DNA of 20,116 nucleotides from a virus: IMG/VR virus record IMGVR_UViG_3300010354_000901, positions 1-20,116 of that record; one strand, written 5' to 3'. Positions 118-20,095 of this stretch are shown one piece after another; within the stretch, counting starts at the first letter, position 1; each line of letters opens with the position of its first letter. Under the pieces are notes generated by a model. The model saw only the letters and a list, made by a program, of their open reading frames with translations. It ran no database searches and was not told where the DNA came from. The translations under genes were made by a program, and so were the position numbers.

Positions 118-126
118 CCCCCCCGC

Positions 127-152: not shown

Positions 153-163
153 CACCCCCCATC

Positions 164-328: not shown

Positions 329-335
329 CCTCTAT

Positions 336-386: not shown

Positions 387-397
387 ACCCGAACCCG

Positions 398-1389: not shown

Positions 1390-1414
1390 CAACTGACTAT
1401 ATACTTGGTATGAT
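1386..1414 (+). promoter_or_regulatory. Consensus sigma70 promoter upstream of the glycosyltransferase
   Basis: TTGACA (1386-1391), a 17-bp spacer and TATGAT (1409-1414) give a near-perfect host sigma70 promoter. The start would fall near 1421, about 17 nt before the ATG at 1438. The -35 box contains the stop codon of the upstream gene. In T4-like phages a strong host-type promoter usually means early transcription, so the gene downstream is probably expressed earlier than the wedge genes. Confidence 0.65.
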
Positions 1415-1437
1415 ACTGATGTAAAGTTTATTCAATT

Positions 1438-2202: not shown

Positions 2203-2206
2203 ACTT

Positions 2207-2377: not shown

Positions 2378-2382
2378 GTCTT

Positions 2383-2538
2383 ATGGCAGTTAAAGCAAAA
2401 GGTGGATTGAACAAGCACAGTTCTTATGTACCAGGTCCTCCGAAGAAAACAAGACAAGGAGATGGTGATGGAACCAAATACGCTTCTACTTCTCGTAATA
2501 AAGCACGTAAAAAATATAGAGGACAAGGTAAAGGTTGA
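2383..2538 (+). CDS. Basic glycine-rich small protein, 51 aa
   Basis: This short gene reads from the ATG at 2383 to the TGA at 2536-2538. AAGGAG (2367-2372) lies 10 nt upstream as a Shine-Dalgarno sequence. The product is highly basic and low in hydrophobic residues: MAVKAKGGLNKHSSYVPGPP at the N terminus, and a Lys/Arg/Gly tail ending ARKKYRGQGKG. It is likely disordered and may bind nucleic acid, as many small basic peptides do. From memory, similar proteins occur in T4-like cyanophages. No function is known. Its stop overlaps the next start as TGATG, implying translational coupling to the 196-aa gene. Confidence 0.7.
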   Translation: MAVKAKGGLNKHSSYVPGPPKKTRQGDGDGTKYASTSRNKARKKYRGQGKG

Positions 2539-3128: not shown

Positions 3129-3131
3129 ATA
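3124..3131 (+). promoter_or_regulatory. T4-like late promoter core upstream of speD
   Basis: GATAAATA matches the NATAAATA core of T4-like late promoters and includes the stop codon of the upstream gene. It ends 35 nt before the speD ATG at 3167. The surroundings are AT-rich, so chance occurrence is possible. Position in a gene junction, and the two further copies at 3815 and 18486 that also sit in gene junctions, support it. Confidence 0.45.
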
Positions 3132-3166
3132 TTTTTTTAAAATATTTTAAATTGGATAAATTTTCA

Positions 3167-3493
3167 ATGGGCAAACACCTTCTATTAGAGGTGTATGATG
3201 TAAACTTTAATCTCCTAAACGATAGTGTTGCCCTTCAAGCAGTGATGGAAAATGGAATTCATCGCGCAAAAATGACAATTTTAAATGTATATCAACACTG
3301 CTTTATTCCTCAAGGATGTACAATAGTAATCACTCTTGCTGAAAGTCATGTGTCTTGCCATACATGGCCTGAAAATGGATGTATTGCCGTCGATGTATAT
3401 ACTTGTGGTGAAGGAAATCCACGCTTAATCGCAATTGAAATTTTAAAATATTTAAATTCAGATAATTATAGTATTAGAGAATTATATCGTTAA
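3167..3493 (+). CDS. speD: S-adenosylmethionine decarboxylase proenzyme, 108 aa
   Basis: SpeD makes decarboxylated S-adenosylmethionine, the aminopropyl donor for spermidine synthesis, in the cytosol. This is the short bacterial/archaeal class that cleaves itself to form a pyruvoyl group. The core LAESHVSCHTWPENG and AVDVYTCGEG are clear. The cleavage site is E59-S60, with His65 and Cys80 as the other catalytic residues. These match Ser63, His68 and Cys83 of the Thermotoga enzyme with a constant offset of three. Length is a little short of cellular enzymes (about 120-130 aa) but typical for phage copies. The ATG at 3167 is preferred to a TTG at 3152. SpeD is a known auxiliary metabolic gene in cyanophages. 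All expected active-site residues are present, so it is probably functional. Confidence 0.9.
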   Translation: MGKHLLLEVYDVNFNLLNDSVALQAVMENGIHRAKMTILNVYQHCFIPQGCTIVITLAESHVSCHTWPENGCIAVDVYTCGEGNPRLIAIEILKYLNSDNYSIRELYR

Positions 3494-3501
3494 ATAGGAA
3501 T

Positions 3502-3521
3502 AGGGAGATAGCAACCTCCTT
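3502..3521 (+). other. Small stem with an anti-Shine-Dalgarno-like arm
   Basis: AGGGAG (3502-3507) can pair with CTCCTT (3516-3521) with one G-U pair around an 8-nt loop. The arm CTCCT (3516-3520) is also complementary to the AGGAG ribosome binding site at 3552-3556, so the leader has two competing pairings. This is a reading of the sequence only; stability was not calculated. Confidence 0.35.
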
Positions 3522-3531
3522 TCAAAAAAAG

Positions 3532-3555
3532 TTCTGTTTTGCACTCAAAACAGGA
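3532..3555 (+). promoter_or_regulatory. Hairpin that overlaps the ribosome binding site of the 83-aa gene
   Basis: CTGTTTTG (3534-3541) pairs perfectly with CAAAACAG (3546-3553) around the loop CACT. It can extend by a T-G and a T-A pair to 3532-3555. The 3' arm contains most of the Shine-Dalgarno AGGAG (3552-3556), which lies 5 nt before the ATG at 3562. The hairpin could hide the ribosome binding site, act as an mRNA end stabiliser after processing, or serve as a protein-binding translational operator as known for some T4 mRNAs. No T-run follows it, so a terminator is less likely. Confidence 0.5.
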
Positions 3556-3561
3556 GCTAAA

Positions 3562-3813
3562 ATGTCCAATTTACCGGTAGATAGAAATCAATCTTACATG
3601 TATCAAATGTGGGGTACTAAATCATTAGTAACTGATTATACTAGTTTAAAATCTGAAAATGTAACACTTCAGGAAATTATGCATGATGATATTGCAAAAA
3701 ATCATCATTATCTGAAAGAACAGTCAAAACTACATCAAAAAATTAGAAACCAAGATGATTATGATGATTGGGAGTATGGAACCGAACCCAATTATGGAGT
3801 TTCTTGGAAATAA
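3562..3813 (+). CDS. Hypothetical protein with a helical, coiled-coil-like centre, 83 aa
   Basis: The ATG at 3562 has a good Shine-Dalgarno (AGGAG, 5 nt spacing). The N terminus has MYQMWGTKSLVTDY. The middle (about 27-64) is predicted helical with Leu/Ile spacing, as in LKSENVTLQEIMHDDIAKNH, followed by YLKEQSKLHQKI, which looks like a short coiled coil. The tail is acidic and aromatic (DDYDDWEYGTEPNYG). It is a soluble small protein with no catalytic motif. It lies directly before the late promoter of gene 25, so it could be a structural accessory or chaperone. That is inference from position; I do not recognise a characterised homologue. Confidence 0.7.
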   Translation: MSNLPVDRNQSYMYQMWGTKSLVTDYTSLKSENVTLQEIMHDDIAKNHHYLKEQSKLHQKIRNQDDYDDWEYGTEPNYGVSWK

Positions 3814-3846: not shown

Positions 3847-4257
3847 ATGGCGATTAATCCAATTACAAGGATATCCAGATCATTTAAAGATATTAGTTTA
3901 TCTTTTGAACCGCATCCAGTAACTAAGGATTTATCTATTCTAAAGAATGAAAGAGCTATTATAAGATCTGTTCGAAATATTGTAGAAACAATACCAACCG
4001 AAAGATTTTTTAATCCAGATTTTGGTTCAGATGTAAGATCAAGTTTATTTGGAATTGTTGATTTTGCAACAGTTTCAATTATAGAAGATCAAATTAAAAC
4101 TTGTATTGATCTTTACGAACCAAGAGTAGAAAATGTGAAAGTAATAGTAAATCCAGAAATAGATGATAATGCTTTAGAAGTTACTGTCATTTTTGACATC
4201 ATTGGGCAAGATTTTCCAACACAAGAATTTACTTTCATCTTAGAGGCAACGAGATAA
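3847..4257 (+). CDS. gp25: Baseplate wedge protein gp25 (gpW/gp25 family), 136 aa
   Basis: In T4, gp25 is a small wedge protein near the tail tube and sheath. Its fold resembles that of sheath-initiator and T6SS TssE proteins. The family signature is visible as a mid-protein IVETIPTERFFNPDFGSDVR (about 44-63) followed by the conserved LYEPRVENVKV (about 94-104), which contains the EPR turn. A final beta-rich stretch follows. Length matches T4 gp25 (132 aa) closely. A late promoter core lies 24 nt upstream. The next gene, gp6, begins 1 bp after the stop, so translation is probably coupled. This gene order is standard in T4-like cyanophages. Identification is firm. Confidence 0.93.
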   Translation: MAINPITRISRSFKDISLSFEPHPVTKDLSILKNERAIIRSVRNIVETIPTERFFNPDFGSDVRSSLFGIVDFATVSIIEDQIKTCIDLYEPRVENVKVIVNPEIDDNALEVTVIFDIIGQDFPTQEFTFILEATR

Positions 4258-4258
4258 A

Positions 4259-6157
4259 ATGCCTTTCACCAATTACGCTAATTTAGATTTCGACCAAATA
4301 AAAACTTCAATTAAAGATTATATTAGATCAAATTCTAATTTTACTGATTTTGATTTTGAAGGATCTAATTTATCTGTTTTAATTGATATTTTAGCATATA
4401 ACACTTATATTAATGCATTTAACTCTAACTTAGCTGTTAATGAAGTATTTTTAGATTCTGCTACAATTCGTGAGAATGTGGTATCTTTGGCAAGAAATAT
4501 TGGATATGTACCAAAATCTAGAAAATGTTCGACATCTGTTGTTTCTTTAAATGTAGAAACTAATAATGAAACTCCTACACTTTCATTGCAACCAGAATTA
4601 GTTTGTATAGGTTCAATAGATAATAGTTCATACATTTTTTCAATACCTGAAGAAATTACTAGAAATGTAGTAAATGGTGTTGCATCATTTGATAATATTA
4701 CGATATATCAAGGAAGATTATTAAAGATATCTTTTACCGTTAATAACTCTTTAGATCAAAGATTTATAATTCCAAATCCATATGTAGATACAAATACAAT
4801 TAGAGTTTATGTAAAAGGACCAAATGATATTGGATTAGGAAAAAAATATTCTTTAGTAGATAATATCATTAGTATAAATGGAGAATCTGAAATATTTTTA
4901 ATTCAGGAAGTAAAAGATGAAAAATATGAACTTTTATTTGGAGATGGTATTTTTGGCAAAAAACTTGAAAATAATTCAGTAATTACAATACATTATATTG
5001 TTACTGATGGTAAAGATGGAAATGGCGCATCTGATTTTTCTTTTGCGGGAACATTAAAAAATTCAAATGGTGCTTTAATTTCACCAACAAATGTATCGGT
5101 TAATACTAATCAATCTTCAAAAAATGGTTCAAATATTGAATCAATAGATTCTATTAAATATTTTGCACCAAGATTATATTCATCCCAATATAGGGCAGTT
5201 ACTTCTGAAGATTATGAGTCAATTATAAAGACTATAATATACCCAAATGCAGAAATAGTAAATGTAATAGGTGGAGAAGATTTAGAACCACCAGAATATG
5301 GATCAGTTACTATATCAATTAAACCAAAAGATGGTTTGTATATTTCGGATTTTGATAAGCAAAATGTATTATCCAAATTAAAAAAATATGCTATAACTGG
5401 AATTAATCAAAAAATAATAGATATTAAAGTTCTTTACATAGAATTAGATTCTTATGTTTATTACAATTCATTAAAATCTTCTGGACCTGAAACTTTAAAA
5501 ACTAAAATAGAAAATTCACTGATTACTTATGGAAATTCTTTGGATATAAACAAATTTGGTGGTAGATTTAAATATAGTAAATCACTTCAAATTATTGATA
5601 ATTCTGATGTTTCAATAACATCAAATATAACTAAAGTTATAATAAGAAGAAACTTAAATGTATTATTAAATCAATTTACTGAATATGAGTTATGTTATGG
5701 TAATAAATTTCATGTAAATTCATTGGGTGGTAATATAAAGTCTACAGGGTTTAAAATACCATCGGAAAGTGAATTTGTTTATTTTACAGATATTCCTAAT
5801 CAAGATAAGGTTACTGGAAATATAGCAGTTATAAAACTATCAGCAAACCCAGATTCTTTACCATCTACTATTATTAGTTCTGCAGGTACAGTAAATTATT
5901 CTACTGGTGAAATTAGATTAAATGCAATTAACATTGTTCAAACCGAATTGCCAAATAGTGTAATTGAAATACAAGCCTTTCCAGAGTCTAATGATGTGGT
6001 GGCACTTAAAGAACTTTATTTAAGTTTAGATATTTCAAAAAGTAAAATAAATATGATTAAAGATGTAATATCTTCTGGAGAAAATACTTCTGGTATTTTA
6101 TTCACTAGAGATTATTATCAATCAAGTTATTCTAATGGAAGTTTAATAAGAAAATAA
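4259..6157 (+). CDS. gp6: Baseplate wedge protein gp6 (baseplate J family), 632 aa
   Basis: T4 gp6 forms the ring that joins wedges round the baseplate hub and is part of the gp6-gp7 core. Here the N terminus has the strongly conserved block DILAYNTYINAFNSNLAVNE (about 42-61), then FLDSATIRENVVSLARNIGY (about 62-81). The middle has QYRAVTSEDYESIIKTIIYP (about 314-333), typical of baseplate J/gp6-like proteins, followed by EYGSVTISIKP. Length is close to T4 gp6 (660 aa). It lies 1 bp after gene 25, and the giant gene follows after another 1-bp gap, suggesting one tightly coupled operon. No truncation or frameshift is seen. Confidence 0.92.
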   Translation: MPFTNYANLDFDQIKTSIKDYIRSNSNFTDFDFEGSNLSVLIDILAYNTYINAFNSNLAVNEVFLDSATIRENVVSLARNIGYVPKSRKCSTSVVSLNVETNNETPTLSLQPELVCIGSIDNSSYIFSIPEEITRNVVNGVASFDNITIYQGRLLKISFTVNNSLDQRFIIPNPYVDTNTIRVYVKGPNDIGLGKKYSLVDNIISINGESEIFLIQEVKDEKYELLFGDGIFGKKLENNSVITIHYIVTDGKDGNGASDFSFAGTLKNSNGALISPTNVSVNTNQSSKNGSNIESIDSIKYFAPRLYSSQYRAVTSEDYESIIKTIIYPNAEIVNVIGGEDLEPPEYGSVTISIKPKDGLYISDFDKQNVLSKLKKYAITGINQKIIDIKVLYIELDSYVYYNSLKSSGPETLKTKIENSLITYGNSLDINKFGGRFKYSKSLQIIDNSDVSITSNITKVIIRRNLNVLLNQFTEYELCYGNKFHVNSLGGNIKSTGFKIPSESEFVYFTDIPNQDKVTGNIAVIKLSANPDSLPSTIISSAGTVNYSTGEIRLNAINIVQTELPNSVIEIQAFPESNDVVALKELYLSLDISKSKINMIKDVISSGENTSGILFTRDYYQSSYSNGSLIRK

Positions 6158-6158
6158 T

Positions 6159-9100
6159 ATGGTACATTCAAATTTTGAATCAAAAGTAAAAATTCAAGAA
6201 ATTATTAATAATCAAATTCCTGAATTTATTTTAGATGAAAATCCAAAATTTTCTGAATTTTTAAAACAGTACTATATTTCGCAGGAATATCAAGGTGGAA
6301 CGGTAGATATTGCAGAAAATATATCTGATTACATTAAACTAGACAATTTAACTCCAAGTGTAATTTCATATTCTCCATTTTTAACTCAGGGAATATCGGA
6401 ATATGATGATACAATATATGTAACTAGTACAAATGGATTTCCAAATTCATATGGATTGATTAAGATTGGTGATGAAATAATAACTTATACTGAAAGATTA
6501 GAAGACAGATTTATTGGATGCATTAGAGGTTTTAGTGGTATAGAATCTTATGAAAACAATTTAGTTTTTAGTTCATCACAAGCATCATCACATGTATCTA
6601 ATTCAAGTATTATCAATTTAAGTGTTTTATTCTTACAAAAATTTTATGAAAAATTAAAGAGAACATTTTTACCAGGATTAGAGAAAATTGATCTAATTGA
6701 GACTTTAAATGTAAATAATTTTATTAAAAATTCAAAATCATTCTATCAGGCAAAAGGAAGTAAAGAATCTTACAGAATTTTATTTAATGCTTTATATGGT
6801 ATTGAACCATCTGTAGTAGATCTTGAGTACTTTTTGTTTAAAACATCCGCATCAGTATATAAGAGAAGAAAAGAATTATTATTTGAAAATTTAACTCCAG
6901 ATAGAGATCCTTTATTATTATCTGGTCTCCAAATTACAAAAGAAACAAATTCGTCAGTATTTGGATCTGTATCTGAAGTTGAAATATTTACTAGAAATAA
7001 TAATATTTTTTACAAATTTTATATATTTTTGGGATATGATAATGCAAATGTGGAAAATAGCGGAGAATTTAAAATTACTCCATCATCAAAAGTTGTAGAA
7101 AGAATATTATCTACAGATCATAGTAATGTTCTAACTGTTGATTCTACTGTAGGATTTGAAAACTCCGGATCAATATATTGCAATGGATTAGAAATTTTTT
7201 ATACAGATAAAAGTGTTAACCAATTTTTTGGATGCTATACGAAAAATAGCACTTATATCAATGCAGATATAGAAAAAAAATCTACTGTTCATTCAAATGA
7301 CACTTATTATGGATATGAAAGTGGAGATAAAGATAAAAAAATATCTCTTAGACTTTTGGGAATAGTAAATGACATTAAAATAGAAAATGATTTAAATTAT
7401 GTATTTTCTGAAGGTGATAAAATTTATACTAAGTCATTAGGAAAATCAATTCAAAATCCACAATCAAATAAATCTAAGTATGAAATTTTTGCAAATAGTT
7501 TAATTTATAATACGTCTTCAAGATATGAATTAAGTGCATTTTTTGTAAATTCTAACTTAGCATTTGCACTTAATAAAATAGATAAATCATCTTTAAAAGT
7601 AGGTGATTATGTTGAATTTTTAGAAAGAAATACTGAAATAGTAGAAGATTCTTTAAGTAATGTTTTAGTTACGTCGATAGATGAATCTACGGGTCAAATT
7701 GAATTTGATTCAAATTTAAACACATTAAATTCTCTCAAAGAATATGACATTAGAAGAAAAGTTAGAACTTCTTCTAGTTCAATAGTTCCTTTAAAATATA
7801 GTAACATTACAAGTGATGTAACTAATTGCTATTTTGAAGATTTAGAAAACTTTTATATTGCATCAAATTCTTTACCTTCATACCAAATAACTAAAAATAT
7901 ATTTTCATATAATGCTTTATCACTAGTAAATTATGATACTACAGAGGAAAAATATAAATCTGTAAAATTTAATGAAATAGTATCATTTTTAAGTGGTGAT
8001 AGAGTATATTATTCTTATAGTAACTCTCCAATATCTGGTTTAAGTGAAGGTGAATATTATATAACAGTTTCTTCTGATAAAACTGAGATTAATTTATATT
8101 TGACAAAATCTTTTATTTCCATTGATAAATTCATTTATCTTGGATCAATTCCTAGTGGAACACACACATTTACTTTGTTATCACATAAAACAAAAGATAA
8201 CAATATACACCCACAAAAAATATTAAAGAAAATAGAATTAAATCCAGATCAATTCTATTCAGAAAAAGATCCAGTAGGAACTGAAACTATAGGAATATTG
8301 TCTAATGGTGTTGAAATTCATAGCTACAAATCAACAGACAAAATAAATTATGGTCCTTTAGAATCAGTATCAGTAATAAATTCTGGTGAAAATTATGATG
8401 TTATTAATCCACCAGGTTTAGAATTTTCTTATGGAACTGCCAAAATACAACCAGTTGTTCAAGGATCAATACAAAAAATATATGTAGATCCTCAAGAATT
8501 TAATATAGAAAAACCAATAAATTTAAAAATTTCTGGTGGAAATGGAAAAAATGCAGTATTATCCCCAGTAACTAAATTAAAAAATAGAGAAGTATTTTTT
8601 GATGCCAGAATACTGGAAGAAAATGGAGGATTGAGTATAACCTCCGAAACCATTACATTCTTAACACCACATAATTTTGTAAATGGTCAAAAAATAATCT
8701 ATGATGTTAATAATATTAATAATCCCAAAATAGGTATTGGTACTTTCCAAGGATCAAATAATGATACTAATAGATATTTGGGTAATAATTCTGTATTTTA
8801 TGCAGAAGTAATTAACGATAAGACTATAAAAATATATCAATCTTATAATGACTATTCTGCAGGAATAAACACTGTTGGTTTTACGACAGTAGGAAATTAT
8901 GGAATTCATAAATTTAAAACTGAATCTAAAAAAGTTTTAGATTCAATAAAAATTATCAATGGTGGTGAAGGATTTACAAATAGAAAATTAATTGTTAATC
9001 CATCTGGAATATCAACCTTCAATAATACCATCAATTTCCCAAATCACGGATTTTCTACAGGTGAATTAGTAATTTATGATTATCAAACTTCTACAATAAG

Positions 9101-12100
9101 TGGATTATCCACATCAAATCAATATTATGTTTTAAAAGTCAATGATGATTCTTTTAGAGTATGTAATGCAGGAATTGCTGGTACAGATAATACAAATTAC
9201 TTGAGAGGAAATTATGTAAAGTTTTCATCTACTGGTACAGGATATCAGTATTTTAATTATCCAAAAATAACAGTAGATGTTTCTTATATTTTATCTGATG
9301 GACAAACAATTAAAACAATTAATGCTACTCCAGTAGTTAGAGGATCAATAATTCAAACTTATCTATATGAAAAAGGATCAAATTATGGTTCCGATATAAT
9401 AAATTTAGAAAAAACTCCAGATGTAAAAATTTTACAAGGAAATTTTGCTCAATTAAATCCCGTAATTTCTAATGGAAAAATAGTAAATGTTTTCATTTCA
9501 TATTATGGATCTGATTATTATTCAACTCCAGATATAATTGTAGAAAGTAAAAGTGGAGTAGGTGCAATTTTAAGAGCTAAAATAGAGAATCAAAAACTAT
9601 CCTCTGTGGTTATTATTGATGGTGGATATGGATATGATCCAGATGATACTGCAATTAAAGTAGTATCATCTGGTAAAAATGCTGTATTTTTACCACAAAT
9701 AAGATCTCTTACACTGAACAATTGTTACAAATATGGTATACAATATCAAAATTATAGAGATCCATCGTATGAAATTTTTAGAAAAACTAAATCCAATAAT
9801 TTACAGTATACCGTATCTGGTTATTCAGATTTATTGAAAAATTTATTTAATGAAAATTCAAATACACATTCACCAATCATAGGATGGGCGTATGATGGAT
9901 TGCCAATCTATGGACCTTTTGGATACTCAGATCCAAGTGATACAAAATCTCAAATTAAATTAATTAAGTCTGGTTATTCTATTTCAACAAACGTAGAAAA
10001 TAGAGTTGATACTACAAAATTCCCTCTTGGTTATTTTGTTGACGATTATGAATTTACTAATTCAGGAGATTTAGATGAATATAATGGTCGTTTTTGTAAA
10101 ACCCCAGAATATCCAAATGGGGCATATGTTTACTTTGCTACTGCCGTTTTAAATCCAGAAAATAAGTATGTTGGATCATTCCCATACTTTATAGGAAAAA
10201 ATTATAGGTGTAAACTAATAAAAACAAATACTGACGCATCTTTCAATCAAGACTTTAATTTTTCAGAGTCTAATTTAATTAGAAACACTTTTCCATATAA
10301 ATCTGGAGAACTTAATGCATCTAATGACTTTATTCCAAATTATTTAAACCAAATTTCAGAAGTTAAAAGTATATCATCTGGAAAAATAGAAAAAGTTACA
10401 GTAATAGATGGCGGAGACAATTATAAAGTTGGCGATTTATTGTATTTTGATAATGAAAATACTTTTGGATACGGTTTAGATTGTAAAGTTGGATCAATAA
10501 AAGGTAAAAAAATCAATACTATTCAATCAAATATTAAAATATATGAAAATTCAAAATTCTACACATCTTCTAAAAATGAGTTTTATGTAAGATTTTATCC
10601 AAATTATGAAATTAAAAATAACTCTTATATCAATATATCTGGGTTAACTTCATCATTTGCAAATTTAAATGGAACATACAGATCTTTAGTAAATGAATTT
10701 AGTACCAAATTATTAGAAAATATTCCATATGGCAACACTGGAATAGTTACGGATATATATTTGCAAGATTTTCCGAACAGAGTTTCTATTGGAAGTTCTA
10801 TTAAAATTTATGGATCATCTTATAATCAATATTTCAAAGTATTGAATTATTTCAATGATTTGAATGTTTTAAGAGTAAAAAGAACTTCATCAGCTGGATT
10901 AAGTACTTCAAATTCTTTAGTAGAATTCTTACCAGATGTATTAACATTTAAAGGAAATGTCTTAGATCAAACTGACGCTGAAAATATAGTTAAATATTTT
11001 AATCCAACAAAAAGTATTGGTGTTGGTACTTTTTCAGGGTCATATACAAATAAATCTTTTTACATTGGAAAAAGTTTATTTGATGCTTCTATTCCAACTC
11101 AAAGTATATACTTACCTAGTCACACATTTAATACTGGTCAAAAAATAATTTTTAAGAGACCATCAGGTCTTAGTGGTATTCAAGTTGTAAAAAATCCTGG
11201 AGAATCGCCATTTTTCTTATTGGGTGGCGCAGAAACTGAAACTATTTTATATGCAATAAACAAATCTAAAGATTATATTGGAATAGCAACTTCTAGAGAA
11301 GCTTCTTTATCAACAAATGGATTATATTTTTCCTCTCAAATTAATGTAGGTACTGATTCTGAAGAATATTCATTTGAAACATCTTTTAATGAAATTAATT
11401 GCAATGTTACTAACATTACAAGTACTGTTTCAATATCTACGTATCATAATTTATCATTAGAAGATGGTGTCACACTCAATGTTATCCCATCAAAAAATGT
11501 TGGTATTGGTACAACTTTTGTTAATTTAAAATATATTGATAATATAAAATCAATATCGACAAATTTAATTAAATTTAATCCAAGTTCAGTTAGTTTGCAA
11601 AACAATAGATTAAATTTAATTAATCATAATTTAAACACTGGAGATAAGGTATATTATATTTCAACTTCAATAATTGGTGGATTAAGCACCGGATCTTACT
11701 ATACCTATAAAGTTGATTTAAATAATATAAGTCTTTGTGAAACTTATATAGATTCTATATCAAATCCACCAAAATTTGTTAAATTTACATCTGTTGGTAT
11801 AGGTACTCAAGAGTTAAATTTAATACAATCCAGAATTAACGTAACTAAAAACAATAATTTAGTTTTTAATTTATCGGATTCTTCTTTATCTGGATATAAT
11901 TTTAGAATCTATGCAGACAAAAAACTTACAAAAGAAATAGTTTCAGTTGCTTCGACAGACAAGTTTTCAATTATAGGAGTTGGAACTGTAGGTGTAAGTA
12001 CTAATGCATCTTTAACTTTACAATATTCTAATGATTATCCAGATGTTCTTTATTATACTCTTGAAAAAAACAATAACTTAGTAGACTTAAAGGATGAAAT

Positions 12101-15100
12101 ATTAAATAGTTCTGAAATAGTATTTAATGATAGCATTTATTCAGGATCCTACAATATTTTTAATGTTACAGATACTACATTTGATATTAATTTGAAAAAA
12201 ATTCCGGAGGATTCTTCATATAATTATTCAGAATGCTATGATTTGAATTATTCAACAACATCATTGAGTGCTTCTGGACCAGTAAATGAAATTAAAATTA
12301 TTAATTCTGGAAATGAATATAAAGATCTTCCAAATTATATGGGATCAAATTCAAAAAATGGATCAGGATTATATGCAATTCCAGAATCTAACCAAGTTGG
12401 TAAAATAAAAGAAATAGAAATAAAAAATACTGGTTTTGAGTATCCTAGTGACATTACTCTTTCACCAGCAATTAATGCATCAAAGATTGCCAGAATTAAT
12501 GAATCTAATACTATATTAAAAGTTAATGTTATTGATGGTGGTAAAAACTACCCTTCTGCACCAAATTTAATTGTAATTGATTCAGAAAGTCGTGAAAAAA
12601 TAGACAGAGGTTTCCTAAAAGCCAATATGTCTAGTGGTGGATTAGGAAATTCAAATATTCAAACAGTTTCTATTGAATCTCCAGTAAATGGTCTCCCATC
12701 AGTTCCAGTAACAATAAAATCTGTCAATAATTCAAATGGTATTTTAATTGATAGAATTGATTCATCGCAAGCTGGAATAATTACTTGCCTATTAAAAACA
12801 CCGATTTTAGGGTTTACTACAGATCCATTTGTTGTAGGGGATGAAGTATTCTTAGAAAATATTGAAAATGTTTCAAATACAGGTAGAGGATTTAATTCTG
12901 AAAACCATGGTTATGAATTTTTTAAAGTAATTAAATATACTTCAGCATCAAATCCAGGAAAAATTGAAATTCAAATACCAGAGTTATATGGAAATCCTGG
13001 AGTTGCTTTAACTTTCCAAATTAATACAAATGCAACAATAGTTAAAAAATCTAATTATCCAGTATTTAAAGTAGAACAAGATTACAGTACTTTCTTAATT
13101 GGGGAAAATATTTCAATTGTAACTAATAACAATGTACTAGAGACTGATTTAATTGTAGAAAAATCTAATAAAAACTATTTAAAATTATTTGGAAATTATG
13201 AATTAAAAGAAAACAATATTATAAAAGGATCTATTAGTGGGTATTTGGCAACTATTTCAGATTTAAAATACTCTGATGGATTTTTTACCATAGGGTCTGA
13301 AAATATTGTATCTATGGATTGGGAGGATGAAACTGGAAAACTTAGTAATGATTTACAATTCATACCGGATAATGATTATTACCAAAATCTTTCATATACG
13401 ATAAAAAGTGAGAAGACTTGGGATGAAATATCCCCGATTGTAAATTCTATGGTTCACCCTATAGGTACGAAGAATTTTGTAGATGTGCAAATTTCTTCGT
13501 CAACATCAGGTATAGTTTCTACTGGGATAGTTTCAAGTTCTAGTTTTGATTCAATTCAATCATTTATATCAAAATCTAGAGTTGATACTATTAAGAATTT
13601 GGATTTTGTTACAGATTATGATGTAAATTCAAATACTTCAAGAATTGTAAAATTTAAAAATTTAAAGTTAACTGATTATTTCGAATCCAGAACAAATAGA
13701 GTTCTTCAAGTAGATGATATAAGTAAAGAATTTTCTAGTACAGATGATAATGATCAAAGATTAGATAAAATTATTTTAGCGTTACCGAAAGATCAAACTT
13801 ATGGAAGATTTTTGATTCAAATAAAATCTTCTAATAAAAATTTATTAGAAGATAATATAAATCAAATACAATTTACTGAAATAATATCTTTAAAAGATAA
13901 TGATGATGCATATTTTATTGAAAAGAATACTGTATCAAATGTATATGGTGTGGGACCAGATTTAAATGTATTTGGACAAAAAATTGCGGACGTAACACCG
14001 ATAGTCGATGAAGTTAAAAATTATTATTTCATATTCACACCGGAAAATCCATATGACATAGATTATGAAATAAAAATTTTTAGTAGCAAATTTTCAACTT
14101 CATTAAAGTCAGATTCTACTTTAGATATTGGATCATCCTCATCTTTCAATAATGTAGAAACAGTTAGTTCAAATCAAAATAAAGATATATTATCAATAAA
14201 TTCTTCATCATACAGATCTTTCATATCTCAAATTCATATATTAAATAAGTCTACTCTTGAAATGAATTATGTTGAGGTTTACGGAATCTATGATGGGAAA
14301 AATATTTACTACAGTGATTATTACTTCGATGGTGTAAGGAATGATAATTTTAGTTATGGATTTATAGGAACTGTTGGAGTATCAACTTCAAATAATTTAA
14401 TCAAAATAAATTATTTTAATAATTTAAATAACGATGTTGTAGTTAGATCAAAAACTATATGTTTTAATGAATCGACTTCAGGTATAGGAACTTATAGATT
14501 CAAATCAACTAGACAAAATGATACCAGTGAAAGAACGGTAATATTAGATTCGGGTACAAAAACTGTTTCTTCTTCATCATCTATTTTCTCTTATGATCCA
14601 CTACTATTCTCTAGTGTAAAATCAATAGTTAAAGTTAGTATAGGTAGTACTATTTCTTTACACCAATTAATGACGATTCATGATGGAGTTAATTCTTTAA
14701 TCGTTGAATATCCATTACTTTCAATTGGAAATAATTCTGGAATAGGAACTTTTAATTCGTCACTAACTCAAAGTAATTTAAGTGTTTTATTTACTCCATT
14801 TGCAGAATATACTGGTTCTAATATTTCAATAAAATATTACAATGAGGTATTCTACTCATTCTTAGATGAAGTTAATACTCCTCTACCTTTATCAATAAGT
14901 CCATTATATGAAAATTTAAATATTGCAAAATATTTTGGATTAAATTCTAAAGAAAGAAATAGATTAAATTTTGATCTAAAGTATAAAGATATTTCAATTT
15001 TTGCTAAATCTTTTGATCCATACGATCAAAATGTATTAGATCCTAGTACTGGCATTTTTACAATTAATAATCACTTTTTCAGTACAGGTGAAAATTTAAT

Positions 15101-18100
15101 TTATAAACCAAAATCAACTTTTATTGGTCTTGGTCAAAGTGCTATGGGAATACCAAATAATTCAATAACCGATGTTGGTATTTCTACAAATAAATTACCT
15201 TCTAGTGTTTATGCGATAAAATTAAATAATAATCAATTTAAATTAGCACTAACACAAACTAATGCTAATTCAGGTGTTGGTATTACTTTTACTAATCTTG
15301 GTGAAGGAAATTCTCACACACTAGAAATGTATAAAAAGAATGTAAAATCATTAATTACAATTAATAATTTAGCTCAATATCCAATATCTTATAGTGGAAT
15401 AGCACATTCACTTTCTGGTAATGATGGATTAGTTGGATATGCTAATACATTCTTTACTTTAAGTGGAATTAGTTCAATAAAACCGACAGATTTATTAAAA
15501 ATTGATAATGAATTTATGAAAGTTCTGAACGTTGGAATAGGAACTAGTAATAAAGGCCCAATATTATTCTTTACTGGAGATAAAAATATTGTTGAAGTTG
15601 AAAGAGGGTTTGTTGGAACCTCTGCAACATCACATCTAGATAATTCTAGGGTAGAAGTTTATAGAGGATCTTATAATATATTTGAAAATCAAATATATTT
15701 CACACATCCACCAAGAGGAAATATATTTGATTTAGTAGATAATGATGAAAGAAATTTACCAAGATCAAGAGCATCATTTAGTGGTAGAGTATTTTTAAGA
15801 AAAAATTACTCAAGTAATGTTATTTTTGATGACATATCTTCACAGTTTACGGGAATCGCTCAAACATTCACTTTAAAAAATCAAGGAATAAGCACAGTAG
15901 GATTAGGAACTACATCAGGAAATGGAATACTTTTTATTAATGGAATTTATCAAACTCCTCTCACTCAAAATATAACTAACTATAACTTTGAGATTATTGA
16001 GAATAAATCTATTGGTATTAGTAGTATAGTATTTACAGGAATAAGAGACAATCTTGATCAACTTACGATATCAAGTTCAGACATAAATCAAAACCAACTT
16101 CCTAGAGGAGGTATTATTGTTTCTTTAGGTTCAACTGCTGGACTCGGTTATGCTCCTCTGGTCGGTGCGAAAGTTAAGGGAGTAGTAAATGGTAGTGGAT
16201 CAATCATAAACATCGTTAGTGCCGCTTCTACTGGCAACTCAGTACCATTTAGCACGGTCTCCTATAATAATTTAACTGGAGTTTTGGATGTATTCACATC
16301 ATATACCGAAAACTTAACTGGAGTAAACCAAGTTAAACTTGTTGGATTAGCTTTTACTTGTCCCTCAAGTTCTGGAATAGTTTCATACTTCCCAAGTCAT
16401 AGTAATTCATTAAATATTATTGGAATAGGAACGACTTCTTTCTCAGTTCAGGTTGGAAAGAGTACATTACCACATTCATACATTGGATATGGAACAATTT
16501 ACACTTGGTATGAAGACTTAAATCCAGGATCAGGATATAGAAATCCAGTTTCAGTGGCAATAACTGAAGTAGGTCATACAGGTTCTGCAGCAACGATAAG
16601 TGCAGTTGTTGGTGCTGGGGGAACATTATCTTTTAACATAATTGGTGGTGGAAGTGGATACGTAAATCCAACTATTTCAATTTCACCACCCAGTTATCAA
16701 AATCTTCCTGTTATTGGAGAATCTAGACTTGGTATTGGTTTAACAACTCAAACTGGAATTGGATTATTGATGAACGTGGAGGTTGGTCCAAGTCCAAATA
16801 ATGTTGGTATAGGAACTACTTTATTTGAAGTTTCTTCATTCAAAATTACAAGACCTGGATACAATTTTAGAAGAGGTGATATATTTAAACCTATAGGATT
16901 AGTTACTGCAAAAGGATTATCAAGTCCAATTAATGAGTTTAAACTCGTAGTCTTAGAAACTTACAATGATAATTTTTCATCTTGGCAGTTTGGTGAAATG
17001 AATTTAATGGATTCAATTAAAAAATTCCAAAATGGATCTAGATTATCATATCCACTTTATTATGATGGAGAATTATTAAGCTTCCAAAATAACGTAGATG
17101 ATCCAGACTCTCAATCTATAGACTTTGATTCATTGTTGGTAATCTTTATAAATGGAGTTCTTCAAGAACCTAAAATTTCTTATGAATTTAATGGAGGTTC
17201 TCTTGTAAGATTTTTAACACCTCCAAAAGAAAATGATGATGTTGATATTTATTTTTACGTTGGAACTAGAGATGAAGATTCTAATCAAGTAAACGTTAAT
17301 CCATTGCTTCAAGTTGGTGATACTGTGGAAATTTACAGTAATAATTCAAATTTACAAAATACAATAACACAAAATTCAAGAACTGTTTTTGACTTTTTAT
17401 CATCAGATTTAATGGAGACAAACCTATATTCAGAACAAGGTATTGATGAAGAAAATTTAAAACCATTATACTGGACCAAGCAAAAAGAAGATATAATAGT
17501 TTTTGATACTATTCATTCAAAATCTAGAGATTCTTTAGAACCACAAGTTTATCCTACTGCAAGAGTAATAAAGAGTTTTTCTAATTATGATAACGAAATT
17601 TTTGTGGATAATGCCCAATTCTTTAATTATGAAGAAGAACTTCCAACTAAAAAAATTAATTTGTTAATAATACCATCTAAAGAATCTATAGAAGTTGGTA
17701 TAGTAACTGCAATTGTATCTTCTTCTGGAACAATACAGTCACTTTCTATAGTAGATCCTGGATTTGGATATACTAATTCTAATGCAAGTATTAAAGTATC
17801 TAATCCATACTATGGCATAACTTCTGGTATAGGATCTACAGCAACAGCACAATTAGTCATTTCTAATGGATCTATAACTGCAGCATCTATAGTAAATTCT
17901 GGATTTGGTTATACAAATAAATATCCACCTCAAGTTATTGTTGAGCATCCAAGAATTGAATATGAAGAAGTTTCTGATGCAAATGTTGTTTCTGGATTTG
18001 ATGGTGTAATTGTTGGCATAGGAACAACAAGTGGTGTTGGAACAAATATGGCATTGACATTTAAATTATTTACTTCAAATGAAAATTATTCTGATTTATT

Positions 18101-18485
18101 AGTTGGTTATCCAATTTATATCTTTGACACCAAAGTTGGAACAGGATTAACAACAATAGATAATTCCGAAAATAAAACTGTAGGTATATCTACAGTATTT
18201 TTAGATAACATATACCATGTCCATTATATTGATACATTGACCGGAATAATAACATGCAATATTTCAAATCAAACAAACATTATCGGAATTGGTACAACTG
18301 GTACAATATCTAAACCAGTAGGTAAGTTTTCATGGGGCAAAATAAGTGGATTTTCAAGATCTAACCCAATTTCAATTGGAATAAGTAATTATACTGTTTC
18401 TGGTCTATCTACTTATCCGATAGTTCAAAGAAGAGGATATGGATTGCGGAATAATGGTGCTATTAAAAAAGATCTATCAACATAA
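6159..18485 (+). CDS. Giant virion structural protein in the gene 7 position, 4108 aa, YHYH-like domain
   Basis: This single uninterrupted gene fills over 60% of the window. It sits between gp6 and gp8, the slot of T4 gene 7 (1032 aa), so a wedge role joined to an extended fibre or tail-pin-like structure is inferred. The first roughly 240 residues look like a conserved anchor (PEFILDENPKFSEFLKQYYI, later FLQKFYEKLKRTFLPG). The module ending CIRGFSG (C121) has relatives near C359 and R3149. About 1190-1355 is a YHYH-type domain with HSPIIGWAYDGLPIYGPFGY at 1237-1256. Repeats fill much of the rest: (D/N)(G/S)GxxY units (for example 741, 934, 1154, 1417, 2126, 3496, 3866, 3913), 'H-x-F/L-x-(T/N)-G' units (H838, H963, H1655, H1823, H2972) and many GIGT turns. 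It is beta-rich with no membrane segment. It ends 26 bp before gene 8. Confidence 0.85.
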   Translation: MVHSNFESKVKIQEIINNQIPEFILDENPKFSEFLKQYYISQEYQGGTVDIAENISDYIKLDNLTPSVISYSPFLTQGISEYDDTIYVTSTNGFPNSYGLIKIGDEIITYTERLEDRFIGCIRGFSGIESYENNLVFSSSQASSHVSNSSIINLSVLFLQKFYEKLKRTFLPGLEKIDLIETLNVNNFIKNSKSFYQAKGSKESYRILFNALYGIEPSVVDLEYFLFKTSASVYKRRKELLFENLTPDRDPLLLSGLQITKETNSSVFGSVSEVEIFTRNNNIFYKFYIFLGYDNANVENSGEFKITPSSKVVERILSTDHSNVLTVDSTVGFENSGSIYCNGLEIFYTDKSVNQFFGCYTKNSTYINADIEKKSTVHSNDTYYGYESGDKDKKISLRLLGIVNDIKIENDLNYVFSEGDKIYTKSLGKSIQNPQSNKSKYEIFANSLIYNTSSRYELSAFFVNSNLAFALNKIDKSSLKVGDYVEFLERNTEIVEDSLSNVLVTSIDESTGQIEFDSNLNTLNSLKEYDIRRKVRTSSSSIVPLKYSNITSDVTNCYFEDLENFYIASNSLPSYQITKNIFSYNALSLVNYDTTEEKYKSVKFNEIVSFLSGDRVYYSYSNSPISGLSEGEYYITVSSDKTEINLYLTKSFISIDKFIYLGSIPSGTHTFTLLSHKTKDNNIHPQKILKKIELNPDQFYSEKDPVGTETIGILSNGVEIHSYKSTDKINYGPLESVSVINSGENYDVINPPGLEFSYGTAKIQPVVQGSIQKIYVDPQEFNIEKPINLKISGGNGKNAVLSPVTKLKNREVFFDARILEENGGLSITSETITFLTPHNFVNGQKIIYDVNNINNPKIGIGTFQGSNNDTNRYLGNNSVFYAEVINDKTIKIYQSYNDYSAGINTVGFTTVGNYGIHKFKTESKKVLDSIKIINGGEGFTNRKLIVNPSGISTFNNTINFPNHGFSTGELVIYDYQTSTISGLSTSNQYYVLKVNDDSFRVCNAGIAGTDNTNYLRGNYVKFSSTGTGYQYFNYPKITVDVSYILSDGQTIKTINATPVVRGSIIQTYLYEKGSNYGSDIINLEKTPDVKILQGNFAQLNPVISNGKIVNVFISYYGSDYYSTPDIIVESKSGVGAILRAKIENQKLSSVVIIDGGYGYDPDDTAIKVVSSGKNAVFLPQIRSLTLNNCYKYGIQYQNYRDPSYEIFRKTKSNNLQYTVSGYSDLLKNLFNENSNTHSPIIGWAYDGLPIYGPFGYSDPSDTKSQIKLIKSGYSISTNVENRVDTTKFPLGYFVDDYEFTNSGDLDEYNGRFCKTPEYPNGAYVYFATAVLNPENKYVGSFPYFIGKNYRCKLIKTNTDASFNQDFNFSESNLIRNTFPYKSGELNASNDFIPNYLNQISEVKSISSGKIEKVTVIDGGDNYKVGDLLYFDNENTFGYGLDCKVGSIKGKKINTIQSNIKIYENSKFYTSSKNEFYVRFYPNYEIKNNSYINISGLTSSFANLNGTYRSLVNEFSTKLLENIPYGNTGIVTDIYLQDFPNRVSIGSSIKIYGSSYNQYFKVLNYFNDLNVLRVKRTSSAGLSTSNSLVEFLPDVLTFKGNVLDQTDAENIVKYFNPTKSIGVGTFSGSYTNKSFYIGKSLFDASIPTQSIYLPSHTFNTGQKIIFKRPSGLSGIQVVKNPGESPFFLLGGAETETILYAINKSKDYIGIATSREASLSTNGLYFSSQINVGTDSEEYSFETSFNEINCNVTNITSTVSISTYHNLSLEDGVTLNVIPSKNVGIGTTFVNLKYIDNIKSISTNLIKFNPSSVSLQNNRLNLINHNLNTGDKVYYISTSIIGGLSTGSYYTYKVDLNNISLCETYIDSISNPPKFVKFTSVGIGTQELNLIQSRINVTKNNNLVFNLSDSSLSGYNFRIYADKKLTKEIVSVASTDKFSIIGVGTVGVSTNASLTLQYSNDYPDVLYYTLEKNNNLVDLKDEILNSSEIVFNDSIYSGSYNIFNVTDTTFDINLKKIPEDSSYNYSECYDLNYSTTSLSASGPVNEIKIINSGNEYKDLPNYMGSNSKNGSGLYAIPESNQVGKIKEIEIKNTGFEYPSDITLSPAINASKIARINESNTILKVNVIDGGKNYPSAPNLIVIDSESREKIDRGFLKANMSSGGLGNSNIQTVSIESPVNGLPSVPVTIKSVNNSNGILIDRIDSSQAGIITCLLKTPILGFTTDPFVVGDEVFLENIENVSNTGRGFNSENHGYEFFKVIKYTSASNPGKIEIQIPELYGNPGVALTFQINTNATIVKKSNYPVFKVEQDYSTFLIGENISIVTNNNVLETDLIVEKSNKNYLKLFGNYELKENNIIKGSISGYLATISDLKYSDGFFTIGSENIVSMDWEDETGKLSNDLQFIPDNDYYQNLSYTIKSEKTWDEISPIVNSMVHPIGTKNFVDVQISSSTSGIVSTGIVSSSSFDSIQSFISKSRVDTIKNLDFVTDYDVNSNTSRIVKFKNLKLTDYFESRTNRVLQVDDISKEFSSTDDNDQRLDKIILALPKDQTYGRFLIQIKSSNKNLLEDNINQIQFTEIISLKDNDDAYFIEKNTVSNVYGVGPDLNVFGQKIADVTPIVDEVKNYYFIFTPENPYDIDYEIKIFSSKFSTSLKSDSTLDIGSSSSFNNVETVSSNQNKDILSINSSSYRSFISQIHILNKSTLEMNYVEVYGIYDGKNIYYSDYYFDGVRNDNFSYGFIGTVGVSTSNNLIKINYFNNLNNDVVVRSKTICFNESTSGIGTYRFKSTRQNDTSERTVILDSGTKTVSSSSSIFSYDPLLFSSVKSIVKVSIGSTISLHQLMTIHDGVNSLIVEYPLLSIGNNSGIGTFNSSLTQSNLSVLFTPFAEYTGSNISIKYYNEVFYSFLDEVNTPLPLSISPLYENLNIAKYFGLNSKERNRLNFDLKYKDISIFAKSFDPYDQNVLDPSTGIFTINNHFFSTGENLIYKPKSTFIGLGQSAMGIPNNSITDVGISTNKLPSSVYAIKLNNNQFKLALTQTNANSGVGITFTNLGEGNSHTLEMYKKNVKSLITINNLAQYPISYSGIAHSLSGNDGLVGYANTFFTLSGISSIKPTDLLKIDNEFMKVLNVGIGTSNKGPILFFTGDKNIVEVERGFVGTSATSHLDNSRVEVYRGSYNIFENQIYFTHPPRGNIFDLVDNDERNLPRSRASFSGRVFLRKNYSSNVIFDDISSQFTGIAQTFTLKNQGISTVGLGTTSGNGILFINGIYQTPLTQNITNYNFEIIENKSIGISSIVFTGIRDNLDQLTISSSDINQNQLPRGGIIVSLGSTAGLGYAPLVGAKVKGVVNGSGSIINIVSAASTGNSVPFSTVSYNNLTGVLDVFTSYTENLTGVNQVKLVGLAFTCPSSSGIVSYFPSHSNSLNIIGIGTTSFSVQVGKSTLPHSYIGYGTIYTWYEDLNPGSGYRNPVSVAITEVGHTGSAATISAVVGAGGTLSFNIIGGGSGYVNPTISISPPSYQNLPVIGESRLGIGLTTQTGIGLLMNVEVGPSPNNVGIGTTLFEVSSFKITRPGYNFRRGDIFKPIGLVTAKGLSSPINEFKLVVLETYNDNFSSWQFGEMNLMDSIKKFQNGSRLSYPLYYDGELLSFQNNVDDPDSQSIDFDSLLVIFINGVLQEPKISYEFNGGSLVRFLTPPKENDDVDIYFYVGTRDEDSNQVNVNPLLQVGDTVEIYSNNSNLQNTITQNSRTVFDFLSSDLMETNLYSEQGIDEENLKPLYWTKQKEDIIVFDTIHSKSRDSLEPQVYPTARVIKSFSNYDNEIFVDNAQFFNYEEELPTKKINLLIIPSKESIEVGIVTAIVSSSGTIQSLSIVDPGFGYTNSNASIKVSNPYYGITSGIGSTATAQLVISNGSITAASIVNSGFGYTNKYPPQVIVEHPRIEYEEVSDANVVSGFDGVIVGIGTTSGVGTNMALTFKLFTSNENYSDLLVGYPIYIFDTKVGTGLTTIDNSENKTVGISTVFLDNIYHVHYIDTLTGIITCNISNQTNIIGIGTTGTISKPVGKFSWGKISGFSRSNPISIGISNYTVSGLSTYPIVQRRGYGLRNNGAIKKDLST
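8379..17912 (+). repeat. Family of (D/N)(G/S)GxxY beta repeats in the giant protein
   Basis: At least twelve short units of the form hydrophobic-x-hydrophobic-(I/V)-(D/N)-(G/S/P)-G-x-x-(Y/F), usually followed by a Pro some residues later, are spread over the protein. Clear ones start at residues 741, 934, 1154, 1417, 2049, 2090, 2126, 3455, 3496, 3866 and 3913, with a divergent one near 1073. Two or three often sit 30-50 residues apart, suggesting tandem beta modules. The same unit occurs in gp8 at 275-280. Confidence 0.6.
9726..10224 (+). other. YHYH-like domain within the giant protein
   Basis: Residues about 1190-1355 resemble YHYH domains found in secreted and phage structural proteins. 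The core HSPIIGWAYDGLPIYGPFGY (1237-1256) is very close to the usual family signature. The later DLDEYNGRF and EYPNGAYVYFAT follow in the expected order. The eponymous Tyr-His-Tyr-His is replaced by Tyr-Val-Tyr-Phe, so any metal-binding role of those histidines is probably lost. Boundaries are approximate. Confidence 0.7.
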
Positions 18486-18511: not shown

Positions 18512-20095
18512 ATGCCGGCTTTTGTTACAGATCAATTTAGAATTTTAAATACTAATAATTTTGTCAATTCTATAGATACTGGAACTGATAATTACTACGT
18601 ATTTGTTGGTTTAACAAATCCTTCTTCTCCAGGATTTGGTAGAAATGTAAATTGGGATAGACCTGATATAGTAGACGCTAATCTTGCAACTTTACCAAAT
18701 CCAACTGATAATTATGATTATATTCCACATTATGGCGATACAATGATATTTGGGAAAAAAATTACTTCCCAAAGTATTAAAAGATGTGTAAGAAAAATTG
18801 AATGGTCACAGGGTATAAAATATGACATGTATAGGCACGATTATAGTGTCACAAACCCATCTGCAATTACAAATAGATCAAGATTATATGATTCGAACTA
18901 TTATGTAATTAATAGTCAATATCAAGTTTATGTATGCATATCTAACGGTTCCAGTGGAATTAATACATTAGGAAATCAATCTCAAGATGAACCTCTTTTC
19001 ACAGATTTGGAACCTTCAAAAGCTGGAACTAGTGGAGATGAATATATTTGGAAATATCTGTTTACTGTTTCCCCAACAGACATAATTAAATTTGATTCTA
19101 CTGAATATATACCATTACCAAATAATTGGGATTCTTCTTCTTTATCTCAAATAAAGTCAGTCAGAGAAAACGGAAATTCGGACATTAACAATAATCAAAT
19201 TAAATTTGTTTATATTGATAGTCCTGGAGGTAGTTATTCTAGTGGTGAAGTAAATATTTTAGGAGATGGTAGTGGAGCAAGAGTTTTTGTTGAGGCAAAT
19301 GAAGATGGTCAAATAGTAAAAACCACAGTAACTTCTGGTGGAAGTGGTTATACTTATGGTATAGTTGATCTTGGACCTCTACAAACCAGTGATACTATTC
19401 CATTTCCAGCAAAACTTATACCCATTATACCACCATCGAAAGGTCATGGATATGACATTTATAGGGAGTTAGGAGCAGATAAAGTTTTAATATACACTAG
19501 ATTTGACGATTCATCAAAAGATTTTCCAATTGATACTAAATTTGCGGAAATAGGAATATTAAAAAATCCAAAAAAATATTCTTCTGAAGAATATTTCACT
19601 TCAGATAGATTTTCTGCTTTAAGTTCATTAAAAGTTAACATAAGTGGTTCAATTCTTCCTACTATTGGAGAAAAAATAGAACAAACCTTATCCAATGGAC
19701 AAAAAGCTTTTGGATACGTATCATCATATGATAAAGATACTCAGGTTTTGAAATATTTTAAAGATAGGTCTTTATATTATAATTCTTCCACTTATGATCA
19801 AACTGATTATGTTGGAATTTCTTCATTGGGAAAATCTACTAATGTTTTTAGTTCTTCTGGTGGTCCTATTGTAGGAAAAACTAGTGGATTCACATGTTCT
19901 ATAAATTCTTCCTTTAATAGTTCTACAGTAACAGTTCAAAATAAAGTAATTAATTTAGATGTTGTCTTTACTGGAGGCATGGCTAATCCAGAAATAAATA
20001 AAACATCTGGAGATATTATCTATATTGATAATAGACCTTTAGTACAGAGAAACTCTAGACAAAAAGAAGATATTAAAATTATTCTAGAATTTTAA
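18512..20095 (+). CDS. gp8: Baseplate wedge protein gp8, extended form, 527 aa
   Basis: T4 gp8 is a dimeric wedge protein that binds gp7 and gp6. The N terminus here (VTDQFRILNTNNFVNSI, then YYVFVGLTNP) matches the T4 layout 'VTSKFRTEKMLNFYNSI ... FITFGRSEPW'. YRHDYS (about 107-112) followed by YYVINSQYQVYVCISN, and DEYIWKYLFTVSPTDIIKF, are also family-typical. The C terminus IYIDNRPLVQRNSRQKEDIK and the last few residues match T4 'IYMENRPP...TEEINILFTF'. T4 gp8 is 334 aa, so about 190 residues are extra. They lie mainly between about 225 and 480 and include SPGGSY (237-242) and SGGSGY (275-280), repeat units like those of the giant neighbour. A TATAAATA promoter precedes it. Confidence 0.9.
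   Translation: MPAFVTDQFRILNTNNFVNSIDTGTDNYYVFVGLTNPSSPGFGRNVNWDRPDIVDANLATLPNPTDNYDYIPHYGDTMIFGKKITSQSIKRCVRKIEWSQGIKYDMYRHDYSVTNPSAITNRSRLYDSNYYVINSQYQVYVCISNGSSGINTLGNQSQDEPLFTDLEPSKAGTSGDEYIWKYLFTVSPTDIIKFDSTEYIPLPNNWDSSSLSQIKSVRENGNSDINNNQIKFVYIDSPGGSYSSGEVNILGDGSGARVFVEANEDGQIVKTTVTSGGSGYTYGIVDLGPLQTSDTIPFPAKLIPIIPPSKGHGYDIYRELGADKVLIYTRFDDSSKDFPIDTKFAEIGILKNPKKYSSEEYFTSDRFSALSSLKVNISGSILPTIGEKIEQTLSNGQKAFGYVSSYDKDTQVLKYFKDRSLYYNSSTYDQTDYVGISSLGKSTNVFSSSGGPIVGKTSGFTCSINSSFNSSTVTVQNKVINLDVVFTGGMANPEINKTSGDIIYIDNRPLVQRNSRQKEDIKIILEF

Follow-up and report, generated by a model that had tools for sequence, protein, structure and literature searches.

The locus and its reading frame

Which protein fills the position of baseplate gene 7 in T4-like cyanophages? 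Few marine viruses are as abundant as cyanophages and pelagiphages. In the window (the whole stretch of DNA analysed here, a complete virus record of 20,116 bases), this position is taken by one unbroken ATG-to-stop open reading frame (ORF) of 4108 aa on the + strand, hereafter the giant. Zaragoza-Solas et al. (2020; PMC7029224) reported gp7 to be absent and, since it had gone undetected, proposed VrlC as its substitute. GenBank labels for the family of the giant are uneven (gp7, baseplate wedge initiator, structural protein, large exoprotein or hypothetical), and given these names and the 2020 claim of an absent gp7 we therefore tested homology using profiles. The genes concerned are:

3847-4257, + strand: gp25, sheath initiator/wedge protein (phrog_261, 7e-50; PF04965, 2e-14)
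4259-6157, + strand: gp6, baseplate wedge protein (phrog_219, 9e-196; PF21379, 2e-18)
6159-18485, + strand: giant gp7 homologue, 4108 aa (phrog_2885 'baseplate wedge subunit', E=0)
18512-20095, + strand: gp8, with one R2 module (phrog_438, 1e-150)

The order gp25-gp6-giant-gp8, assigned by PHROG and Pfam, is the same in relatives. A first-pass annotation of the window had described a 4108-residue gene between gp6 and gp8, four times longer than that of T4 gp7 (1032 aa), and was correct in both respects: the ORF is single and intact, and PHROG and Pfam confirm its neighbours. A read-through artefact is ruled out since the long frame is kept in relatives, eight metagenomic ones having closed ORFs of 3874-4194 aa and ~30 more a frame open for >3600 aa, up to the end of the stored DNA. 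Identity to relatives is fairly even from end to end, and the GC content of the gene is 11.5% at the third codon position versus 35% at positions 1 and 2.

The giant matches phrog_2885 over its full length (E=0, 3410 bits, best stretch 6-3381, profile length 4179), and hence is a new member of an already known family. A search with residues 1-1000 gave 462 phage records, every one carrying Synechococcus, Prochlorococcus, cyanophage or marine virus in its name, and a degenerate scan of viral contigs yielded at least 593 confirmed relatives. Its size is ordinary for cyanophages (Kyanoviridae), since the same slot holds proteins of 874-7124 aa in Kyanoviridae (lengths in relatives taken from annotated coordinates) and the 5195-aa P-SSM2 copy (PSSM2_111) is already annotated as gp7. 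Slot proteins range from Pelagibacter phage Mosig (874 aa), S-H34 (1942), S-PM2 (3048) and S-WAM2 (3446) through S-CAM9 (3884), S-SRM01 (3895), S-SCSM1 (4120) and ACG-2014f (4225) to S-T4 (4749), P-SSM2 (5195), ACG-2014b (6422), ACG-2014d (6817) and P-SSM7 (7124). Searches of the giant by megablast against phages, by phmmer (whole protein) against the PDB and against NCBIfam gave no match; the single-sequence methods, phmmer and megablast, thus missed a gp7 relationship that profiles detected.

Upstream of the baseplate genes, positions 1-900 of the window have a GC content of ~60%, compared to ~26% in the baseplate genes. This end might be chimeric, but the ORF at 59-328 has copies of 52-78% identity in contigs of related cyanophages (L053, L039, L055), while that at 398-784 is without copies in such contigs; the GC-rich end may be a region that varies or one joined on in assembly. 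A 254-aa ORF at 1438-2202 is ~90% identical in relatives, a conservation close to that of gp25, occurs in 58 fetched loci and has no Pfam match. The gene speD (S-adenosylmethionine decarboxylase; 3152-3493) lies just upstream of gp25, and is also found in the freshwater phage S-SRM01 and in 43 fetched loci.

The gp7 core

Our analyses indicate that the giant is very probably the orthologue of T4 gp7 in a T4-like cyanophage, with the core in two pieces (core A and core B) and with an insert and an extension made of beta modules. Its main parts are:

6159-7055, + strand: core A, residues 1-299, counterpart of the helices that in T4 and XM1 join two gp6 chains in the (gp6)2-gp7 core bundle (hhalign, PDB profile search)
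6711-6824, + strand: residues 185-222, segment closest to T4 gp7 724-758 (FYxxKGxxxSyrxLFxxLYg; profile comparisons)
6855-7367, + strand: residues 233-403, domain-V-like fold (T4 gp7 763-851), holding R3 copy 2 at 302-364 (VIA)
7368-13175, + strand: insert between core A and core B, residues 404-2339 (gap comparison with relatives)
13176-13772, + strand: core B, residues 2340-2538 (YYQxxSYxIKS...VNxxxHPxGTKNF; HMM matches)
13773-18482, + strand: C-terminal extension, residues 2539-4108 (profile comparisons)

An N-terminal profile of 15 relatives, compared using hhalign with seven T4-type gp7s, scored 62 (P 4.6e-7). The match spans residues 1-300 of the giant and 643-813 of T4 gp7, with residues 185-289 pairing with T4 724-813. 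Thirty column-shuffled gp7 alignments scored no higher than 22.3 and reversed gp7 15.5, and hhalign comparison of the core A profile with T4 gp5, gp6, gp8, gp9, gp10, gp11 and gp53 gave scores of at most 17.9. In a PDB-wide search with the N-terminal profile, T4 gp7 (E 2e-4) and a Klebsiella-phage gp7 (4e-4) came ahead of the next entry (0.047), and T4-type gp7 is the only credible sequence match of the giant in the PDB. The compact gp7 of Sinorhizobium phage phiM12 (1007 aa) bridges the two, since it aligns contiguously with T4 gp7 ~643-839 and also with residues 3-48 and 159-290 of the giant.

The T4 gp7 family, phrog_964, matches the S-SCSM1 giant (1e-10), phiM12 gp7 (4e-9, over 639-832) and the giant frame in P-SSM2, P-SSM7, ACG-2014f and ACG-2014d, and no other protein in these six genomes. 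Core A (in full or as its helical part) and core B moreover mark one and the same ORF, that in the gp7 slot, in 13/13 complete related phage genomes, where the remaining core A matches are copies of only the small R3 beta module and the sole second core B match, in Mosig, is weak and partial. As both cores fall in one gene per genome, we conclude that there is no other gp7 in these 13 genomes, on which the test was made since the genome of the window itself is a 20-kb fragment. The first-pass annotation had allowed for an N-terminus unrelated to gp7 and a separate gp7 elsewhere; what we found is core A homology and a single locus.

Predicted structure is consistent with the sequence comparison. 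In a model of residues 1-1050 (71 sequences, mean pLDDT 79.9), VIA matched residues 233-403 to gp7 763-842 in 5hx2 (Z 7.4, 2.5 A, 80 aligned), 235-410 to gp7 765-851 in 5iv5 (Z 7.9) and 179-404 to gp7 713-844 in 9f4a (Z 7.7). These scores are middling, and Z <8 alone means little; the match counts because in all three gp7 structures it is colinear with the core A sequence alignment. The N-terminal core helices have pLDDT of 46-65, which might be expected because the core bundle needs gp6. The gp7 identity of the giant is therefore backed by sequence and partly by fold.

Core B first surfaced when the full-length profile was compared with phiM12 and Mosig. Its HMM (residues 2340-2540) matches Mosig 571-671 (1e-12), phiM12 929-986 (3e-10), S-H34 1807-1899 (2e-11), S-PM2 1810-1902 and P-SSM7 3396-3572, and these matches are strong evidence that core B is common to compact gp7s. 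In T4 gp7 the best match is at 866-888, IKSNLPSSRWKSDVIRFVHPVGF against IKSEKTWDEISPIVNSMVHPIGT, with an hhalign score of 39.3 compared to at most 26.0 in 40 shuffles. Since the core B profile found nothing credible in the PDB, it is this hhalign match that links core B to T4, and because it is short (23 residues) we propose with moderate confidence that T4 866-888 is the core B counterpart.

The giant is hence a gp7 core with a ~1900-residue insert in its interior, and repeated beta modules make up the ~1570-residue extension behind it. An N-terminal anchor, as the first-pass annotation had it, exists in the form of core A, but with a second core piece at 2340-2540 the core is not confined to the N-terminus, and roughly half of the bulk sits within it. 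Core A and core B are ~15-50 aa apart in T4, ~300 in Mosig, ~780 in phiM12, ~1570 in S-H34, ~2040 in the giant and ~2640 in P-SSM7; after core B there follow 21 residues in phiM12, 43 in S-H34, 203 in Mosig, 1146 in S-PM2, 1570 in the giant, ~2590 in P-SSM2 and 3550 in P-SSM7. P-SSM7 (L034) and ACG-2014d (L120) have a further insertion of ~500 residues, rich in R2 modules, within core A, between the first helices and the KG-motif helix. With the family, one can thus test from sequence how a baseplate protein expands from <900 to >7000 residues with its seat retained, and the split core gives structural biologists an expectation of which residues sit at the sheath trigger and which lie peripherally.

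Among relatives, P-SSM2 gp7 (phrog_2885) is a homologue over the whole length, in the common order gp25-gp6-X-gp8-VrlC: both proteins have core A, the YHYH domain, core B and D1/D2, with ~42% identity over residues 1-1000 and ~1000 extra residues in P-SSM2 near 3400-3490. T4 gp7 (1032 aa; 5iv5, 5hx2) occupies the same slot, and its core helices (643-760), domain V (763-851, with a probable counterpart in the giant) and motif 866-888 follow one another as in the giant, but it has ~640 residues ahead of the core and none of the insert, whereas the cyanophage giant begins at the core, with ~1900 residues added in its interior and ~1570 behind it. The compact gp7s of phiM12 and Mosig carry core A N-terminally and core B further along, with strong E-values, an insert of ~300-780 aa, a tail of 21-203 aa and no YHYH domain. 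The suggestion that the giant is a fused gp7 and fibre therefore holds for gp7, by profiles and slot, but not as T4 gp7 plus fibre, because only a ~250-residue core is common to both and the outer domains of T4 gp7 (residues 1-640) have no sequence match anywhere in the giant in profile comparisons, which divergence could also bring about. We also considered fusion with T4 gp10, gp9, gp11, gp8, gp5 or gp53, and rejected it as no profile similarity was found.

Repeated modules of the insert and extension

Profile-profile self-comparison of the giant yielded 28 distinct repeat pairs with P <1e-4 (best P 2e-16) in at least three families, and no pair <1e-4 against reversed targets (best P 5e-4). 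R1 (~80-90 aa) and R2 (~65 aa, with a GGxGY turn) have seven matches each and R3 (~60 aa) has two; with the D1/D2 pair, they uphold the earlier description of a protein full of beta repeats with modules grown by duplication. The modules and landmarks located are:

6354-6542, + strand: R3 beta module 1, residues 66-128, between core helices (self-comparison, model)
7986-8228, + strand: R1 copy, residues 610-690 (self-comparison)
8640-8873, + strand: R1 copy, residues 828-905 (self-comparison)
9021-9263, + strand: R1 copy, residues 955-1035 (best pair, P 2e-16, with 1802-1895)
9837-10151, + strand: YHYH domain, residues 1227-1331 (PF14240, 8e-27)
11121-11366, + strand: R1 copy, residues 1655-1736 (self-comparison)
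11610-11858, + strand: R1 copy, residues 1818-1900 (self-comparison)
14130-14483, + strand: beta-sandwich D1, residues 2658-2775 (fold of T4 gp9 C-terminal domain and tailspike C-domains)
14511-14873, + strand: beta-sandwich D2, residues 2785-2905, duplicate of D1 (self-comparison, P 9e-7)
15036-15311, + strand: R1 copy, residues 2960-3051 (self-comparison)
16215-16613, + strand: indel hotspot, residues 3353-3485 (comparison with relatives)
17694-17933, + strand: R2 module 'GGxGY', residues 3846-3925 (self-comparison)

R modules were not found in T4-type gp7s or phiM12, and the compact gp7s (phiM12, Mosig) have almost none. Protein length and module count correlate (Spearman 0.76), a value that is descriptive only since the sequences are related. 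R2 also occurs once in the gp8 of the window (residues 219-282, iE 2e-5) and in VrlC (residues 1846-1911; L003:33291-40586). Because they are found in the giant, gp8 and VrlC, modules appear to move between baseplate proteins, and the spread of R2 suggests such exchange. In the YHYH domain, the namesake motif reads YVYF in the giant and YAYF in most relatives; among 80 relatives the first histidine occurs in 0/80 and the second in 4/80, so that, judging from these sequences, the histidines have been lost across the family. Residues 451-537 (window 7509-7769) have the beta-barrel fold type of EF-Tu domain 2, Uba1 and tail tubes (Z 9.6 to 9n71).

In a second model (residues 2330-3529, 41 sequences, mean pLDDT 63.7), confident at ~2530-3070 and below pLDDT 50 in core B, D1 resembles the C-terminal domain of T4 gp9 (1qex, residues 169-287; VIA Z 13.4, 2.7 A, 114 aligned) and also tailspike C-domains (Z 8.9-10.1; ~10 to 6e1r and 6c72), which D2 matches at Z 7.3 and 6.3 (VIA). 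Foldseek gave no match below E 1e-3 for either model, many rows being common beta folds. As sequence profiles give no support for D1 or D2 against gp9, which in T4 is a separate trimeric protein, we take the likeness of D1 to gp9 as a resemblance of fold only.

An appendage role of the extension is nonetheless plausible, and one form of it, in which residues 2539-4108 are a covalently attached adhesin or fibre-docking arm that touches the host surface and replaces separate gp9, gp10, gp11 or gp12, is a possibility that we regard as rather less likely than its opposite. The part of gp9 that D1 resembles is the one that binds the long tail fibres (PMC3004832), but gp9 is a trimer and gp7 a monomer (PMC3004832), and the gp9 reading lacks sequence support. 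The extension can be swapped between lineages, being almost missing after core B in S-H34 and phiM12 and largely non-homologous in S-PM2, S-WAM2 and P-SSM7. A T4-type gp9/gp10 N-terminus was not found in S-SRM01, S-T4 and ACG-2014f, the sole gp10-family match in P-SSM2 is weak, partial and at a distant locus, and none of the cyanophages examined yielded a full-length T4-type gp10; P-SSM7, ACG-2014d, S-SCSM1 and Mosig have a separate protein whose N-terminus is of gp9/gp10 type. Against replacement in cis stands S-CAM9, which has lost the stretch matching window residues 2527-2774 and has neither D1 nor a gp9/gp10-type N-terminus.

Host contact is suggested by the 3048-aa S-PM2 protein (matched here by length and position), which is mutated in coevolution with the host (PMC9910659). 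A hypervariable tip, however, is not seen in the extension: most of it is 66-80% identical to the nearest relatives, and fairly evenly so apart from the indels at ~3353-3485 (large insertions in P-SSM2, S-T4 and L010; a deletion in the S-SRM01 group and S-CAM9), and the stretch least conserved among close relatives, ~1351-1800, lies outside it. The YHYH domain, moreover, is without its namesake histidines. The receptor-binding arms of the first-pass annotation thus keep appendage-type folds on their side but not hypervariability, and a direct adhesive role of the giant stays tentative.

Proposed place in the baseplate and alternatives

Each T4 virion has six copies of gp7, which is monomeric. 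The protein contacts gp9 through one domain, and gp9 in turn holds the long tail fibre with its C-terminal domain; on triggering, the A domain of gp7 moves outwards (PMC3004832). Transposed to the giant, this would mean six giants per virion, with core A and core B docking onto gp6, gp25, gp53 and gp8 to keep the gp7 seat in the wedge. The inserted and appended modules would make up the outer baseplate, where they could do the structural work of the N-terminal domains of T4 gp7 and of gp9, gp10 and gp11, connect the wedge to fibres or spikes and relay the contraction trigger. XM1 gp17, a minimal gp7 orthologue of 242 aa, makes the core bundle with its N-terminal helix-turn-helix and holds tail spikes with flexible stretches at 80-106 and 201-242 (PMC10457771). 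It is without beta modules and was compared with the giant from the paper alone, not by sequence (PMC10457771); by analogy, we infer that the sites of expansion in the giant, R3 between the core helices and the stretch behind the core, may correspond to these spike-holding stretches. Duplication and exchange of small beta modules would account for the bulk, at sites that serve for tail-spike anchoring in the simplest phages.

A bolder version, to which we give somewhat less credence than to the adhesive role, is that gp7 took over peripheral jobs of T4, with D1/D2 docking fibres in cis, the extension anchoring or being the adhesion apparatus and a ~450-kDa chain running from core to host contact. 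Processing of the primary product, by proteolysis or by splitting of the frame, to free core and extension separately is unlikely: the S-SKS1 record (L035:20001-32384, RefSeq) has the giant region broken over several frames, partly unannotated, and in L074 the frame closes earlier, at 2787 aa, but the frame is intact in nearly all relatives. The break in S-SKS1 is due either to sequencing frameshifts or to a truly split gene.

That VrlC replaces gp7 and the giant is merely an accessory structural protein, as would follow from the published proposal (PMC7029224), which rests on gp7 not being detected, is disfavoured and highly improbable: VrlC does lie after gp8 in every genome examined, but it has no similarity to T4 gp7 (best P 0.41), which the giant does match, and in cyanophage genomes phrog_964, where it matches at all, matches only the giant. 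With no profile similarity to gp7, VrlC was rejected as gp7. Our result argues against that idea and locates the gp7 reported missing from cyanophages and pelagiphages; in the literature searched we found no mention of the split gp7 core or of this conflict with the VrlC proposal.

Returning to the giant as gp7, relatives are found in virions. The 4120-aa S-SCSM1 relative is annotated 'virion protein' in its record, and virion proteins of this phage were identified by mass spectrometry (PMC9602691). For S-CREM2, ORF122 in the gp7 slot, 1937 aa by coordinates, is covered by 91 unique peptides (PMC10665884); its cluster relative S-H34 was the one used in our gp7 tests. Both findings would also be compatible with processing of the chain. 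The large translation and assembly cost that the earlier annotation foresaw is not apparent: six copies of ~450 kDa per chain (at 110 Da per residue) would amount to ~2.7 MDa per virion, which is modest when set against the ~9.8 MDa of the T4 sheath (138 x 71.2 kDa; PMC3004832).
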